NCBI RefSeq assembly: GCF_000328625.1
Contig: NC_019978.1
Coordinates: 1,798,001 to 1,862,000 of the forward strand
Direction of reading: 5' to 3'
DNA length: 64,000 bases
From: Halobacteroides halobius DSM 5150
GTDB lineage: Bacteria > Bacillota > Halanaerobiia > Halobacteroidales > Halobacteroidaceae
This document shows, in pieces, positions 18,940-63,542 of this stretch; positions within the stretch are counted from its first letter, which is position 1, and every line of letters begins with the position of its first letter. A program made the translations under genes and the position numbers. Under the pieces are notes generated by a model. That model made no database searches. It saw only the letters and a program-made list of their open reading frames with translations, and was not told where the DNA came from.

Positions 18940-19956
18940 TTAATCTTCTTGCCAAGAGATAATTGCTACTTTTTCTTGAGCTAAGTATAACCTATTATAA
19001 TTAGGTAATCTAGGACTTATACTTGGGTTATTACCATAAAAGATAAAATCATCTGGGGTTAATAATAAGCCATTAAAAGTTATATTATTAACTTTTCCAG
19101 TTGGCCCACCTAATTTAATCCCTTCTTGAGCATAAACTAAACAATTATTCATTACTAATTTATTAGCACTACCATTAACTAAAAATTCACCCTTAATAAT
19201 AAAATAAATATTCTCTAAAGATGAGTGGAGATTAGCATTAGTAATTCTTAAATCACCATCTACTACAAGAATTGCTGGTTGCTCTTTTGCTCTAGCACTA
19301 AAGGTTGTATTCTTTAAATCTACATTAATATCTGATTTAATATAGAAGATTTCACCTTTTATATCTCGATTATTAAAGAGTAGATTACTATTATAAATAT
19401 TATTGCTTTGCTTTGCTTTTGCTTTATATTTATCAAAGTTAAATCTAGGAATAGTAGTGGCCATAGTAACTAATTCATCCAGATTATTATTTTTCTTACC
19501 ATTACTTTTTATCTTACTTTCTCCACCTACAATAATATTTTTTCTAGGGTGTTGAGTAACTAAAGACTTTAAGCTATTAATATTTCTACTACCAGTTATT
19601 CTAACTGTAATAGTAATCTTTTTAGTTACTTCTCCAATCTTACTTATAGAATTAATTTTTAAATTACCCTTACTATCATAAATATTAGATAAATTAATCT
19701 TTTCATCTTCAACTCTAATTACTGTAGGTAAGTGCTTTAGATTTAATCTTCCCTTTTTTAATTGACTATTAATAATATCTATACTTCTTTCTATTCCTGC
19801 TTCCGCTAAATAAAGAGCTTGAATATTCTTTTGGTAGTGGTTGACTGACTTTAGTTCATTATTTATTAGTACACTAGTTCCAATGACTAATATCATTAAT
19901 ATAGTGATCACCAGTAATGATAAATAAATAGTAAAACCTTGTTCACTAGTAAACAT
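18940..19956 (-). CDS. PilX-like minor pilin or pilus-associated protein with a beta-rich tail
   Basis: The N terminus has a prepilin-like segment (EQGFTIYLSLLVITILMILV), followed by ALYLAEAGIERSID as in PilX-type proteins. The long C-terminal part (about 160-330) is beta-rich with repeated short strands (PAILVVDGDLRITNANL, FIIKGEFLVNGS), like polymer-forming or beta-helix domains. A Gly before Phe suits the prepilin peptidase encoded nearby, but the usual Glu at +5 is absent. Likely a minor pilin, perhaps at the pilus tip; the exact role is unknown. Confidence 0.65.
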   Translation of the reverse strand: MFTSEQGFTIYLSLLVITILMILVIGTSVLINNELKSVNHYQKNIQALYLAEAGIERSIDIINSQLKKGRLNLKHLPTVIRVEDEKINLSNIYDSKGNLKINSISKIGEVTKKITITVRITGSRNINSLKSLVTQHPRKNIIVGGESKIKSNGKKNNNLDELVTMATTIPRFNFDKYKAKAKQSNNIYNSNLLFNNRDIKGEIFYIKSDINVDLKNTTFSARAKEQPAILVVDGDLRITNANLHSSLENIYFIIKGEFLVNGSANKLVMNNCLVYAQEGIKLGGPTGKVNNITFNGLLLTPDDFIFYGNNPSISPRLPNYNRLYLAQEKVAIISWQED

Positions 19957-21635: not shown

Positions 21636-22067
21636 TTAGAGCTTAGTTGCAGCACTTTCTTTTGTTCCAAAACCTTTTTCTCCAATATAAAAGGTAGTAT
21701 CTGTATTACCACTTTCAATTTCTATTAAATAACCTTTACTGTTTCCATCATTATCAACAGTATAAGTAAAAGAATCAGATTTAATATCTGGTTTAATATC
21801 TGGTAAACTAACTGTCGTTAATGTATCATCTAAAGCAGCATAATCAGCTACATCTGTAGTTGATGGATATTTCCCATGTGATACATAATACATCTCCATC
21901 CCACTTCTAATTGTACTTGCTGCTGCTTTTATTTGAGTATCTCTAGCTTTCCCTAATACACCACTTAATTTAGGAATAGCAATCCCTGCTAAAATCCCAA
22001 TCACAGCAATTACAACCATTAATTCAATTAATGTAAATCCTGACTCTCTTCTTGTTTTTTTAAACAT
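21636..22067 (-). CDS. pilA: Major type IV pilin (GspG/PilA-like)
   Basis: The 143-residue product has leader MFKKTRRESG then FTLIELMVVIAVIGILAGIA, a textbook class III signal with Glu at +5. A short helix and a small, Asp/Thr-rich globular domain follow (about 60-135), of GspG-like size. No disulphide cysteines are present. ATG 22067 follows AAAAGGAG at 8 bases and is preferred over an upstream GTG. Sequence cannot exclude a pseudopilin role, but motors and PilMNOPQ in the same operon favour a pilus. Confidence 0.88.
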   Translation of the reverse strand: MFKKTRRESGFTLIELMVVIAVIGILAGIAIPKLSGVLGKARDTQIKAAASTIRSGMEMYYVSHGKYPSTTDVADYAALDDTLTTVSLPDIKPDIKSDSFTYTVDNDGNSKGYLIEIESGNTDTTFYIGEKGFGTKESAATKL

Positions 22068-22089: not shown

Positions 22090-23301
22090 TTAAATTCCTT
22101 GCATCAAATTAAATAAAGGCATCATCACTGACGTAACAATTCCTCCTACTACTAAACCCAATAACAAAATTAATACTGGCTCAAGTAAAGATACAACCTG
22201 CTCAATTGTATATTCTACCTCACGATCATAAAAATCAGCTACCTTATTTAACATCTGGGCCAAGGTTCCTGTCTCTTCTCCTAACTCAATCATCTGTAAA
22301 AACATCTGAGGAAATATAGTACTCTTTTCTAAAGGAGTTACCATACTTTGGCCTTGACTAATATTTTCTCTAGCTTCAATAATCTTATCTGTAATTACCT
22401 GATTAGTTACTACATTACTTACTACATCTAACCCCTCTAAAATAGAAACACCACTCTCTAATAAAACACCTAAAGTTTTACTTAATCTACCAAGGGAGAC
22501 TTTAATAATCAAATTACTAATCACAGGTATTCTCAATAATAGAGCATCTACCTTTCTTTGGCCCTCAGTTGTTTGATAATAACGTCTAGCTACTAATCCA
22601 CTAATCAATATAGCTAATATAACTACATACCAATAATCTCCTAAAAAAGTACTTAAAGCTAATAAAGCACGAGTAATTAATGGTAACCTAACATCAAACT
22701 GAGCGAACATACCTACAAAAGTAGGTAAAATAAATGTTACTAAAAAGACAACTACATTGACTGAAATTAAAGTAATTACAGCCGGATAAACTAAAGCAGA
22801 AGTCACCTTCTGTTGAATCTCTCGCTCTCGTTCAAAGTAATTAGCCATTTCTTCTAAAGTATTATCTAATACCCCACCTGTTTCACCTACTCTTACCATA
22901 CTAATAAATAATTTAGAAAAAATATCCTCTTGCTCAACTAAAGCCTCTGATAATGCAGTTCCCTTCTCTACCTCTTCTTTAATTGAACTAACTGCTTCTT
23001 TTAATTTAGGATTAGGGGTCTGTTCTTTTAATACTCCTAAAGTCCTAACTAAAGATAAACCTGAATTTATCATTGTTGCAAACTGACGACAAAAAATACT
23101 TAAATCTTTTAGCTTTACTCTTCTCCATTGCTTAAAGATTTTTCCTAAATTCTTTCTTTCAGATTTTTCTTCAATTCTAGTTAAATAATAACCTTGCTCT
23201 CTTAATTGATCAACTGCACTATCTTTATTTCTAGCCTCAATAACCCCATCTACTAAATTACCAACTTGATCTCTTGCTTTATAATCAAAACGAGGCGTAA
23301 T
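22090..23301 (-). CDS. pilC: Type IV pilus inner-membrane platform protein PilC
   Basis: PilC is the membrane platform that the PilB and PilT motors act on. Read from the first ATG (23073) it would lack its first 76 residues, but the frame stays open upstream and encodes the normal N terminus (TPRFDYKARDQVGNLVDGVI, then QLREQGYYLTRIEEK). No ATG, GTG or TTG precedes that N terminus. An ATT at 23301 lies 6 bases after GGGGG and gives a full-length 403-residue protein with two T2SSF domains (about 75-198 and 278-400). I therefore call an ATT start, not a truncation. Confidence 0.9.
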   Translation of the reverse strand: MTPRFDYKARDQVGNLVDGVIEARNKDSAVDQLREQGYYLTRIEEKSERKNLGKIFKQWRRVKLKDLSIFCRQFATMINSGLSLVRTLGVLKEQTPNPKLKEAVSSIKEEVEKGTALSEALVEQEDIFSKLFISMVRVGETGGVLDNTLEEMANYFEREREIQQKVTSALVYPAVITLISVNVVVFLVTFILPTFVGMFAQFDVRLPLITRALLALSTFLGDYWYVVILAILISGLVARRYYQTTEGQRKVDALLLRIPVISNLIIKVSLGRLSKTLGVLLESGVSILEGLDVVSNVVTNQVITDKIIEARENISQGQSMVTPLEKSTIFPQMFLQMIELGEETGTLAQMLNKVADFYDREVEYTIEQVVSLLEPVLILLLGLVVGGIVTSVMMPLFNLMQGI

Positions 23302-23312
23302 AAAGCACCCCC

Positions 23313-24356
23313 TTAAATTAACTTTTCTAATGTCTGACGATCATTTGCTTGTTCTAATGCAACTTGATGACTAATTTTTCCTTGTAAATATAAATCTCGT
23401 AAAGAATAATCCATAGTATGCATACCCTCATGTTTACTTGTTTGCATTACTGAATCTAATTGATGATTCTTTCCCTCACGAATTAAATTTTTAACTGCAG
23501 AATTTACTAATAATAGTTCAGTAGCTACTTTTCGTTCTAATCCATCAACTGTAGGTAATAATTGTTGGGCTAATACTCCTTTTAAATTCATAGATAACTG
23601 TGTTCTAATTTGTTCCTGTTGATAAGGTGGAAACACATTAATAATACGATCAATAGTCTCAGCAGCATTATTAGTATGTAAGGTTGCTAATACTAAATGA
23701 CCAGTCTCTGCAGCAGTAATAGCAGTTGAAATAGTTTCTAAATCCCTCATTTCACCAACTAAAATGATATCAGGGTCTTGCCTTAAAGCAGCCTTAAGAC
23801 CACTAGCAAAATCAATAGTATCCCTGCCTACTTCACGTTGATTAACTAGACTTTTTTTATGTTGGTGTATATATTCAATTGGATCCTCTAAAGTAATAAT
23901 ATGCTTACTATAATTTTGATTAACTAAATTAATCATAGCAGCTAAAGTAGTTGACTTTCCACTACCAGTTGGCCCAGTAACCAAAAAAAGTCCTCTCGGT
24001 TCTACAGCTAATTTCTTTAACTTTTCTGGCAAACCTAAGCTATCCAAATCATCAATCTGATTAGGAATAATTCGTAATACTAAAGCTGGATTATTTCTTT
24101 GATAAAAAGCATTAACTCTAAATCTATATCCATCCCACTGATAAGCAAAGTCTAATTCTTTATCTGCTTCAAATTGATTCCTTCTATCCTCTAATAATTC
24201 ATCTACTAAATTATTAATTTTATCTTTATTTACAATTTTGTCATTCATCTTTTGCAATCTACCATTAACTCTGACCATAGGTTCTGTCCCCATAGTCAAA
24301 TGAATATCTGAAGCTCCTAACCTAATCCCTTCAGTTAATAAATTCTCTAATTTCAC
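23313..24356 (-). CDS. pilT: Pilus retraction ATPase
   Basis: PilT powers pilus retraction. The 347-residue hexameric ATPase has the Walker A GPTGSGKSTT (about 129-138), the Asp box ITLEDPIEY, Walker B-like DPDIILVGEMRDLET and the His box HLVLATLHTNNAAETIDR. It is complete at both ends (MKLENLLTEGIRLGASDIHL). It sits 22 bases after pilB and 11 before the proposed pilC start. Confidence 0.96.
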   Translation of the reverse strand: MKLENLLTEGIRLGASDIHLTMGTEPMVRVNGRLQKMNDKIVNKDKINNLVDELLEDRRNQFEADKELDFAYQWDGYRFRVNAFYQRNNPALVLRIIPNQIDDLDSLGLPEKLKKLAVEPRGLFLVTGPTGSGKSTTLAAMINLVNQNYSKHIITLEDPIEYIHQHKKSLVNQREVGRDTIDFASGLKAALRQDPDIILVGEMRDLETISTAITAAETGHLVLATLHTNNAAETIDRIINVFPPYQQEQIRTQLSMNLKGVLAQQLLPTVDGLERKVATELLLVNSAVKNLIREGKNHQLDSVMQTSKHEGMHTMDYSLRDLYLQGKISHQVALEQANDRQTLEKLI

Positions 24357-24378: not shown

Positions 24379-26052
24379 CTAAATTTTAGTGACTCTCATC
24401 GCCTCTTCTAAGCTAGTTATCCCTTTTTCTACCTTTTTTAAAGCAGCATCTTCAAGAGTATTCATACCTTTTGTTTTTGCTACTGATTCAATTTTAGCTG
24501 CTGATACTTTTTCTACTACTAATTCTTTTATTTTAGCTTCTACCTCTAACAATTCGTATATTGCAGTCCTTCTTTTATACCCTGCCTGATTACAGCTTCT
24601 ACATCCTTCCCCTTGATAATGTTTAAAACTATCTTTTACTTCTAAAGTTTTAGGAGGAAGTAACTTTTCGCTTTCTACTTTACAATTATCACAAATCTTT
24701 CTTACTAATCTCTGAGCTATAACACCTAGCACTGAAGAAGCAACCAAATAAGGTTCAATCCCCATATCTATTAATCTTGTTAGAGCTCCTGCAGATTGAT
24801 TAGTATGTAAAGTGCTTAATACTAGATGACCAGTCATAGCAGCATGAATAGCTATCTTTGCTGTCTCCTTATCTCTAATCTCCCCTATCATTATTACATC
24901 CGGGTCTTGACGTAAAATAGATCGTAAACCATTAGCAAAACTAAGTCCTGCTTTAGAATTAGTCTGTACTTGATTAACCCCTTTTAATTTATATTCTACT
25001 GGATCCTCTACAGTAATAATATTTTTACTACTAGCATCCATAAAATTCAAAGCAGAATAAAGGGTCGTCGTCTTACCACTGCCAGTTGGCCCAGTTATCA
25101 ATAACATACCATGAGGTTGATTAATCATCTTCTTAAAAGCAGGTTTAGCCTCAACAGATAAGCCTAACTCATCAATACTTAACATTACATTATCTTTATC
25201 TAAAATTCTAATAACAACCTTCTCACCTTCTACAGTAGGTAAAGTGGAAATTCTTAAATCAACCTTAGTATTAGCTAATTTCATCTGAATTCTTCCGTCT
25301 TGAGGTAATCTTCTTTCAGCTATATCCATTTCAGCCATAATCTTTATTCTAGAAACTAGAGCCGAAAGTGTCTGCTTAGGTATATTCATTTCTGTATGTA
25401 GTATCCCATCAATTCTATATCTTACTTGCACTTGATCTTCATCCGGCTCTATATGAATATCACTAGCTCTTGCTTTAACTGCTCTAGCAATAATGCTATT
25501 TACCAATCTAACTATTGGAGCATCTTCTACCATCTGCTGTAAATTATTATCTTCTAATTGGCCTGAATTAATCCTATCTATTTTTAAATCTACATCCTCC
25601 ATAAATTCATTAACAATATCAGTCTCACCAAAATACTGATTTATAGCATTTTGAATTTCTTCCTCACTAGAGATACCTGGAATTACTTCACAATTAGTTT
25701 TTATCCTAATATCATCAATTGCTAAAATATCCAAAGGATCAGCCATAGCTACAGTTAAGGCATTATCTTTTTGTTTTACTGGAATAGCCTTATGTCGTTC
25801 AGCTAAAGATTTAGGAATCATATTAATAACTTCAGGATCAATTATCATTTGTTTTAAATCTAGCCGGGGAATTCCTAACTGAAATTCTAATGCCTCCATT
25901 ACACTCTCATCAGTTACCAACCCCATCCTTTTTAATATATTCCCTAATCGTTGCTCAGTATTTTTCTGCCTTTTTAATGCTTCATTCAATTCTTCTTCAG
26001 TAATAAAACCGGCCTCTACCAAAATATCCCCTAACCTTTTCTTTTTAATCAT
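24379..26052 (-). CDS. pilB: Pilus extension ATPase PilB (GspE family)
   Basis: PilB powers pilus extension. The N-terminal MshEN domain (about 1-145, LGDILVEAGFITEEEL; a domain that binds c-di-GMP in several relatives) precedes the ATPase core: Walker A GPTGSGKTTT (about 320), VEDPVEYKL, the Walker B region PDVIMIGEIRDKET and the His box HLVLSTLHTNQSAG. The zinc tetracysteine CDNC and CRSC lies near the C terminus. At 557 residues it is complete. It is the first gene of the pilus operon and follows the structured leader at 26135-26241. Confidence 0.96.
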   Translation of the reverse strand: MIKKKRLGDILVEAGFITEEELNEALKRQKNTEQRLGNILKRMGLVTDESVMEALEFQLGIPRLDLKQMIIDPEVINMIPKSLAERHKAIPVKQKDNALTVAMADPLDILAIDDIRIKTNCEVIPGISSEEEIQNAINQYFGETDIVNEFMEDVDLKIDRINSGQLEDNNLQQMVEDAPIVRLVNSIIARAVKARASDIHIEPDEDQVQVRYRIDGILHTEMNIPKQTLSALVSRIKIMAEMDIAERRLPQDGRIQMKLANTKVDLRISTLPTVEGEKVVIRILDKDNVMLSIDELGLSVEAKPAFKKMINQPHGMLLITGPTGSGKTTTLYSALNFMDASSKNIITVEDPVEYKLKGVNQVQTNSKAGLSFANGLRSILRQDPDVIMIGEIRDKETAKIAIHAAMTGHLVLSTLHTNQSAGALTRLIDMGIEPYLVASSVLGVIAQRLVRKICDNCKVESEKLLPPKTLEVKDSFKHYQGEGCRSCNQAGYKRRTAIYELLEVEAKIKELVVEKVSAAKIESVAKTKGMNTLEDAALKKVEKGITSLEEAMRVTKI

Positions 26053-31897: not shown

Positions 31898-33437
<1,540 letters not shown>

Positions 33438-61440: not shown

Positions 61441-63542
61441 TAAAGTAGGACCAGCCTCACGGCTGGGACCTCTTGTCAAACTGCACGTACGGTTCTCCCG
61501 TATACAGCTTTCGGTCATTGTTGCTCCTTAACAGAGAGTAAGTTATCGTCTTTGTGTTGCCACAAATGTATATTTTACTCTTGTCTAAAGCACATCGGTA
61601 AGCAGTGATTCTAGTCCTAAATCTCTTAATATTTTATTAGGAAGGCGATAATTCTGCCCTTTCGCCTTCTTTCCTTCTATAAAACAACGTAATCTCATTC
61701 TTATCCAACCATCTAACCTTTTATATAGTCCTTTAACATTTCCTAGTAGAAAACTATTACCCCAACCTCTAATAATTAAATTAAGTTCATCAATCATTAC
61801 AGCTACTCCTATTGATCTATTCCTTTTGGTTTTCTTTCTTACTTTATCCTTGAAACTTTTAATAGAGCTCTCTTTTGGCATTTTATAATCACCATTATAA
61901 AATCTAAATTCTAGAAATTTAAACCCATCATCAAAATTCGTAATTACTGTTTTCCGAGGATGTAGTCTTAAGTTTAATTCATTTTCTATAATCTGGCGAG
62001 TTACTTCCAAAGCACGTTCTGCTTTAGCTTTACTCTTAGCCATAATTATAAAGTCATCGGCAAATCTAACTATCTTATATCCTCGACACCTCATTTTCTT
62101 ATCAAAATGATGTAGGTAGATATTTGCTAAAAGTGGAGAAATTACGCCTCCTTGTGGAGTTCCCTCCGTTGTTTCTTCTCTTCCTTGCTCAGTCATGACA
62201 CCTATAGTAAGCCACGACCTAATAATATCTAATACCCAACCATCACTTACTTCCTCTGCTATCAGCTCCATTAAAATTTCATGATCTATTGTATCAAAGT
62301 AAGATTTGACATCTGCGTCTAATACCCAATTATAACCTTGTTCTTTATATTCTTCTACTTTCTTAATTGCATCTTCGGTTGACCTATTAGGTCTAAAACC
62401 ATAAGAACAGTCGCAGAATATTTCTTCAAAGTGTATCTCTAGAATCTGTTTCACTGCTTGTTGGGCAATTCGGTCTTTAATTACTGGAATACCTAGTGGT
62501 CTTTGTTCTCCATTTCCTTTTGAGATATACGTTCTTAGAACTGGTTGTGGCTCATATCTATCTTCTGTTAACTGGCGATATAAAGCACTCATATTCTTAG
62601 TGTAATTTTCTCTAAATTCTTCAACTTCTACACCGTCAATCCCTCCACAACCACCATTATTCAAAACTTTCTGAGCTGCACAATGTAAATGTCTTTTCTT
62701 AGTCACTAAATCTTTTATACTATATAGCGAACTAATTTTTTTTTCACCTATCCTACCTCACGACTTACCAGTTCTTCCTATCCTGTCTTAATATCTAAAC
62801 CCCTATATTCGTAGCATTCCTAAGCACGTCTTCTAAGCTCTCGCCAATCGCACCTCTTAGTTTACTACTACTTAGGTCATGGTTTTTCTTAAATTCATCA
62901 CGCTTCCAGTTATGATTTTCTGTCCGCTATTTCTTTTAAGACTTATTGTCTTTAACAATGTTTAAACCATTTTGATTTAAATACCATCAACACTCAATTC
63001 TAAACTTCAATAACCTGGCTATCCTTCACTGTAATCAACTTTCATTGATTTTTTTTCTACTACTATGATAGCTTCTGAACTCTAATATTTCATCGCTTTG
63101 ACTTTCCCTATTCAGGTTATATCATCACTTATCTTTATAGATTTCTATAAAGACCATATTAGAGCATCCTCTGGTCACCTATGCTATATTCCAATCATTC
63201 CGACCATAATCACACTCATTAATCTAACATACTCCAATGGTCTGTAAGTCAGCTTTGGACTTCTCCATCCTTTTGGTAGATCGTCACTAATGAATGCCAC
63301 CTTCAGTTCACATATTGTTCCGGACTGATTTTTCGCCTCAAACTCTTCAGATTACATCTCACGATGAACACCCTGTTACTGTTGGCTTCATATCCTGTTC
63401 TTTATTAACTTAGGTTGACGTTTGTTTTCTCCGTTTGCTCACCCATTTCGTCTGTGAGTGCCACAATATCTCAACCATATTATCCATTCTTCCAGAATAG
63501 GCAGGACTTACACCTACTATCAGCATAGACTACAGAGCACAC
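61441..63542 (-). mobile_element. Group II intron (probably class C) inserted after the aspS terminator
   Basis: The 5' end GTGTGC at 63542 follows directly after the aspS terminator hairpin and its T run. Domain V is seen at 61478-61508 (AGCTGTATACGG, loop, CCGTACGTGCAGTTT; AGC triad at the start), then a domain VI hairpin (CCCAGCCGTGAGGCTGG) with a CCTAC branch region ending near 61441. The reverse transcriptase lies between. Insertion right after a terminator and lack of an endonuclease domain are class C traits. The 62.8-63.5 kb part holds only intron RNA domains. The 3' end is certain to a few bases only. Confidence 0.85.
61585..62706 (-). CDS. Group II intron reverse transcriptase/maturase
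   Basis: The intron-encoded protein that helps splicing and copies the intron into DNA. Fingers-palm motifs: GGIDGVEVEEF, RPLGIPVIKDRIAQQAV, YGFRPNRSTEDAI, TEGTPQGGVISPLLANIYLH and the catalytic FADD (KIVRFADDFII). The maturase X domain follows (WGNSFLLGNVKGLYKRLDGW). No HNH endonuclease domain is present. The GTG at 62706 probably misses the real N terminus: the frame is open upstream and encodes ISSLYSIKDLV after an AGGTG and a run of nine A's, so start at ATT 62736 or a frameshift in the A run is possible. Confidence 0.88.
   Translation of the reverse strand: MTKKRHLHCAAQKVLNNGGCGGIDGVEVEEFRENYTKNMSALYRQLTEDRYEPQPVLRTYISKGNGEQRPLGIPVIKDRIAQQAVKQILEIHFEEIFCDCSYGFRPNRSTEDAIKKVEEYKEQGYNWVLDADVKSYFDTIDHEILMELIAEEVSDGWVLDIIRSWLTIGVMTEQGREETTEGTPQGGVISPLLANIYLHHFDKKMRCRGYKIVRFADDFIIMAKSKAKAERALEVTRQIIENELNLRLHPRKTVITNFDDGFKFLEFRFYNGDYKMPKESSIKSFKDKVRKKTKRNRSIGVAVMIDELNLIIRGWGNSFLLGNVKGLYKRLDGWIRMRLRCFIEGKKAKGQNYRLPNKILRDLGLESLLTDVL

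Follow-up and report, generated by a model that had tools for sequence, protein, structure and literature searches.

A rare AUU start codon of the pilus gene pilC, kept across a bacterial order, is probably a brake on the amount of PilC

The window analyzed here is a 64,000-nucleotide stretch of the Halobacteroides halobius DSM 5150 genome, which is assembled around it as a single contig of 2.65 Mb. Its minus strand carries a run of type IV pilus genes in the order pilB, pilT, pilC, a pilin gene and pilD, followed by a minor pilin gene and pilM/N/O-like genes (Table 1). Read from an ATT codon, the 403-residue product of pilC matches the Pfam family T2SSF (2.5e-62) and displays the features of a PilC protein, namely two T2SSF stretches, the N-terminal part, and a place in a pilB-pilT-pilC run. 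Myxococcus PilC (PDB 3jc8) could be aligned over residues 2-400, and among platform proteins of the PilC/GspF type (T2SSF; 3jc8, 2whn) the window protein is an ordinary member, of full length when read from ATT. Elsewhere in the window, at 61585-62706, an open reading frame resembles a group II intron reverse transcriptase (by eye only).

Table 1. Coordinates of pilC, its neighbors and the elements of its start region in the window
Feature	Position	Strand	Remarks
Very probable AUU start codon of pilC	23299..23301	-	From homologous-column comparison and sequence
Extended Shine-Dalgarno site, AAGGGGGTG	23306..23314	-	Overlaps pilT stop; from sequence
3' end of 16S rRNA gene, GGATCACCTCCTTTCTA (anti-Shine-Dalgarno)	31901..31917	-	The window's own 16S gene
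ATG at codon 77, first canonical codon in frame	23071..23073	-	Conserved internal Met, not start
pilC	22090..23301	-	Platform protein of the type IV pilus in the inner membrane; 403 codons counted from ATT, and a stop
pilT	23313..24356	-	GTG start at 24356; cistron upstream of pilC
pilB	24379..26052	-	ATG start; first in the pilB-pilT-pilC-pilA run
pilA-like pilin gene (MFKKTRRESGFTLIEL)	21636..22067	-	ATG start; directly downstream of pilC

On the minus strand the pilT stop codon (TAA, 23315-23313) is followed by GGGGG (23312-23308), the spacer TGCTTT, ATT (23301-23299) and ACG CCT CGT TTT GAT TAT AAA, so that the junction of the two genes reads ...TTTAAGGGGGTGCTTT ATT ACG CCT CGT TTT GAT TAT. 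Upstream of ATT the pilC frame continues beyond the pilT stop and ends at a TGA after 13 codons; between this TGA and codon 77 it contains neither ATG nor GTG nor TTG. The initial annotation had described such a frame, with a 6-base spacer between GGGGG and ATT 23301, and had taken ATT as the start because it yields the N terminus of the family; re-reading of the sequence agrees on frame and spacing, and the N terminus aligns with those of orthologs from residue 1-5 onward and with 3jc8 from residue 2. Translation of pilC almost certainly begins at AUU 23301, as judged from these features and the comparisons below.

Conservation was examined in 13 genomes of the order, representing nine genera and two families. 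All 13 encode PilC, in a total of 14 genes (G006 has two copies), and the other PilC proteins of the order are 50-57% identical to that of the window. At the homologous column ATT is found in G000, G001, G002, G004, G008, G009, and G010, ATC in G005 and G007, ATG in G003, G011, and G012, and GTG in G006a; in G006b a short insertion places an ATT-ATC pair two to three codons ahead of this column. Alignment of pilC starts across related genomes, proposed earlier as a check on the window, thus shows that the codon best placed to serve as the start is ATT or ATC in 10 of 14 genes, one each in ten genomes of eight genera. The non-canonical start is therefore conserved across species of the order, and since four genes use ATG or GTG it is not an essential trait. 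AUN codons make up 9% of pilC codons, and the binomial probability of finding them at the start column in 10 of 14 genes is near 2e-8, a figure that is only a guide because the genes are related. A single base change would suffice to convert ATG, GTG or TTG into ATT, and the window alone is compatible with a sequencing or assembly error of this kind, named at the outset as an outcome that would overturn the AUU start. The same place is occupied by ATT or ATC in genomes of seven further genera, and these independent genomes refute such an error, the probability of which is next to nil. Sequence comparison thus points to the rare, weak AUU being, probably, a brake on the amount of PilC that has been kept.

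The upstream context restricts the choice of start in most of these genes. In G001, G004, G006b, and G009 a stop interrupts the pilC frame five to seven codons before the start, and in G008 ten codons before it; no ATG, GTG or TTG lies between stop and ATT/ATC in these five genes, and ATT/ATC are the only start-like codons common to them. A GTG is present in G007 and G010 but lies inside the Shine-Dalgarno site and has none of its own, while a TTG in G002, eight codons upstream and before the Shine-Dalgarno site, likewise has none. G005 has a possible alternative in an ATG two codons before ATC (Shine-Dalgarno about -8). By this reading, seven of the ten AUU/AUC genes have no usable NTG codon, two strongly favor AUU/AUC, and one allows either. 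Which codon exactly serves as the start is uncertain in G001 (CTG or ATT), G002 and G008 (two ATT each), and G006b (ATT or ATC). The same stops bear on whether pilC needs a start codon at all. In the window its frame is the -1 frame of pilT and is open past the pilT stop, as would be expected of a PilT-PilC fusion made by a -1 frameshift near that stop; yet this frame is closed in G001, G004, G006b, and G009, pilB rather than pilT lies directly upstream of pilC in G004, and inspection of the end of pilT by eye revealed no standard slippery heptamer, making a fusion extremely improbable.

Two side observations concern individual genomes. In G008 (L012 / L071) pilC contains one in-frame TAG, and the matches to pilT and pilB are broken; the pilus genes of this genome may be decaying or affected by assembly errors. 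In G007 a partial second pilC-like stretch (G007:C5:286798-287301, L024) precedes the full pilC by approximately 530 bp. A scan of the genome contigs returned distant relatives only.

The initial annotation had also noted that a start at ATG 23073 would remove 76 residues. This is so: ATG 23073, as the first canonical codon in frame, is the choice that a standard gene caller would make, and were it correct the first 76 codons would be untranslated or decayed. Codons 2-76 are instead conserved as protein in all orthologs and under purifying selection, with differences by codon position of 9/2/24 between G008 and G009 and 12/11/27 between G001 and G002, whereas 17 of 23 sites differ in the stretch just upstream of the start in either pair. 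Moreover, 14/14 genes, including those that start with ATG, have the codon-77 ATG at the equivalent position, indicating a conserved methionine of the T2SSF domain, and in all 14 this codon is essentially devoid of Shine-Dalgarno pairing (-2.2 to -3.0 kcal/mol). Initiation at ATG 23073 is thus highly improbable.

At the ATT codon, by comparison, the extended Shine-Dalgarno site pairs with the 3' end of 16S rRNA over 9 bases, including one G-U pair, in a duplex of about -13.5 kcal/mol. The strongest pairing falls at ATT/ATC in 10/10 such genes (-12.1 to -18.2 kcal/mol, mean -15.3), compared with a mean of -11.8 for neighboring genes, whose starts were called automatically with a few wrong (Mann-Whitney p 0.0002). 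Copies of pilC with canonical starts, both inside and outside the order, have equally strong sites (p 0.23). A strong Shine-Dalgarno site is thus a property of pilC, and compensation for AUU is not shown by it. Folding of the -45..+36 stretch, aimed at conserved RNA structure at the start, revealed no common trend in accessibility.

A class-wide search of 59 genomes allowed 17 further pilC orthologs to be read from other families of the class. Unlike pilC of the window, all 17 have a canonical start in the same column (ATG in 14, TTG in three), indicating that the position of the start is ancestral and AUU/AUC derived. In a tree of 31 PilC proteins the 14 genes of the order form one clade with full support, and parsimony requires a minimum of four changes between AUU/AUC and NTG, whether or not the three less certain genes are included. 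One change to AUU/AUC on the stem followed by three reversions (in G003, G006a, and the G011-G012 pair) would fit this count; the exact history of the codon is not fixed, as deep branches within the order are partly unresolved.

Controls were drawn from the same 13 genomes and comprised the other genes of the pilus cluster together with the ftsZ (dcw) cluster and a flagellar cluster. Family alignments were screened for a canonical start with a Shine-Dalgarno site near the family start, and such a start was found in 107/113 pilus, 203/209 dcw, and 235/244 flagellar genes (545/566 in total). AUN-like starts among the remainder were limited to pilA of G006b and one dcw gene of G006, both AUA; the other exceptions were broken or cut genes or had weak Shine-Dalgarno sites. 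The gene pilC was left out of this tally because under half of its members are canonical, and fliA was left out likewise; 10 of 14 pilC genes have an AUN codon with a Shine-Dalgarno site and no canonical start with such a site within eight codons. An automatic start call, which labeled 10 of 101 control genes non-canonical, was dropped since these were mostly ties with a nearby ATG; for the same reason a Fisher test on the automatic calls was not used, and the alignment-based screen replaced it. Matches to AUN plus Shine-Dalgarno deep inside conserved genes were also rejected as starts, as they reflect protein motifs. That AUU initiation is available in these organisms is indicated by infC, which begins with ATT in 13/13 genomes, mostly behind GGAGGTG-type Shine-Dalgarno sites; the IF3_C domain was likewise found in all 13.

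AUU could be the true start of pilC and still be neutral, the need for PilC being so small that neither selection nor regulation is involved. The 4/14 pilC genes with ATG or GTG are in keeping with this, as are single AUA starts in other genes of the order, in pilA (G006b) and a minor-pilin gene (G004). On the other hand, AUU/AUC has been kept in lineages whose proteins share about half of their residues, and AUN starts hardly occur among the 566 controls; because one third-base mutation restores ATG, neutral retention is unlikely, and neutrality is a minority reading.

When AUU serves as a start it is read by initiator tRNA(fMet), and IF3 selects against such initiation; a pilus machine needs few copies of PilC. 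The AUU of pilC would be decoded by the ordinary initiator tRNA, giving Met as the first residue, with the extended Shine-Dalgarno site helping the weak codon. An ancestral ATG or TTG would have become AUU/AUC in the ancestor of the order, and most lineages would have retained it. Initiation at this codon would be infrequent and sensitive to IF3, and PilC would as a result be made in smaller amounts than the PilB, PilT, and pilin encoded in the same gene run, with stoichiometry as the benefit. By analogy with the S. aureus and Streptomyces cases below, we infer that PilC is kept less abundant than the pilin and the two hexameric ATPases, PilB and PilT. This explanation as a whole, in which a conserved AUU start lowers PilC output within its gene run, is given a probability of about 0.85 on the sequence evidence. 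That AUU lowers output is, by the same analogy, likely; that it was selected for doing so is somewhat less so, though favored. The initial annotation had proposed that AUU limits PilC or ties it to pilT. Limitation would be the natural reading, whereas the tie to pilT is not conserved: in G009 pilC lies about 140 bp from pilT and in G004 it follows pilB rather than pilT, yet each retains ATT and has a stop a short way upstream. Because the codon is retained despite differences in spacing and gene order, coupling to pilT is unsupported as the reason for it.

Initially infC was cited as the known case of an AUU start, which understates the record, as cvfC1 (AUU), ccpN (AUA), and sigR (GTC) are also documented (PMC13009471, PMC5472188). 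Like pilC, infC combines AUU with a strong Shine-Dalgarno site; its product is IF3, so infC regulates itself, whereas pilC would lie downstream of IF3 as a target, with no feedback. In S. aureus, ribosome profiling and reporters have shown that the conserved starts of cvfC1 and ccpN, with extended Shine-Dalgarno sites, lower initiation (PMC13009471). The pilC start resembles these in being a conserved AUN codon behind an extended site; the genes differ, cvfC1 encoding a small putative zinc-finger protein and ccpN a repressor of gluconeogenesis. The GTC start of Streptomyces sigR, which IF3 represses, holds one protein at a lower level than its partner (PMC5472188). As with pilC, it is a conserved non-canonical start that annotation missed and it limits one of several partner proteins, the role proposed here for the pilC codon; it differs in its codon, in IF3 repression having been established by experiment, and in belonging to a sigma factor rather than a pilus part. 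Traits of AUN starts that pilC displays are the lack of a usable NTG at the family N terminus, AUN at the proper distance from the Shine-Dalgarno site, an extended form of that site, and conservation across species.

A second case turned up unsought in a control cluster. In the sister family, all five genomes (G001-G005; L107-L111, e.g. L095:192-971, minus strand) have ATA as the start codon of fliA, the sigma-28 gene; a stop 5-10 codons upstream is followed by GGAGGG or GGGGGG, two codons, and ATA, with no ATG, GTG or TTG between. In all eight genomes of the window's own family fliA has ATG or GTG. Other sigma-factor genes were matched with one stop inside the matched stretch at G001:C1:1798607-1799320, G002:C5:155491-156204, G005:C10:14833-15531, and G011:C8:206003-206716. 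Conserved non-canonical starts are of a known kind, and pilC and fliA look to be new targets; a literature search, in a limited collection that cannot serve as proof, found no non-canonical start reported for pilC, any pilus gene or fliA.

Three single genes have apparent ATA starts. In the second pilus cluster of G006 (L069), pilA reads AAGAAGGTGGCGATT ATA ATT AAT AAA, compared with ATG ATT AGT AAG in relatives. A minor-pilin-like gene of G004 (L066), a relative of window 18940-19956, has ATA behind GGGAGGTGG where the aligned window gene has ATG TTT, and in a gene of dcw family 0 in G006 (L087) ATA lies behind GTGAGGTGG, relatives being canonical.

It is a possibility, from this small sample of sequences, that weak starts gather on motility genes in this order. 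The broader proposal, that AUN starts mark surface-motility genes (pilC order-wide, fliA in one family, a single pilA and minor-pilin gene) and that pilus and flagellum output follows IF3 activity, and hence growth state, at translation, is doubtful.

Standard gene callers accept ATG, GTG, and TTG only, and in many genomes would trim 76 residues from PilC, a core component of the pilus. A start that stays weak throughout an order offers a clean natural case for asking why one part of a machine stays low. Together with fliA, pilC suggests that weak starts may serve beyond the autocontrol of IF3.
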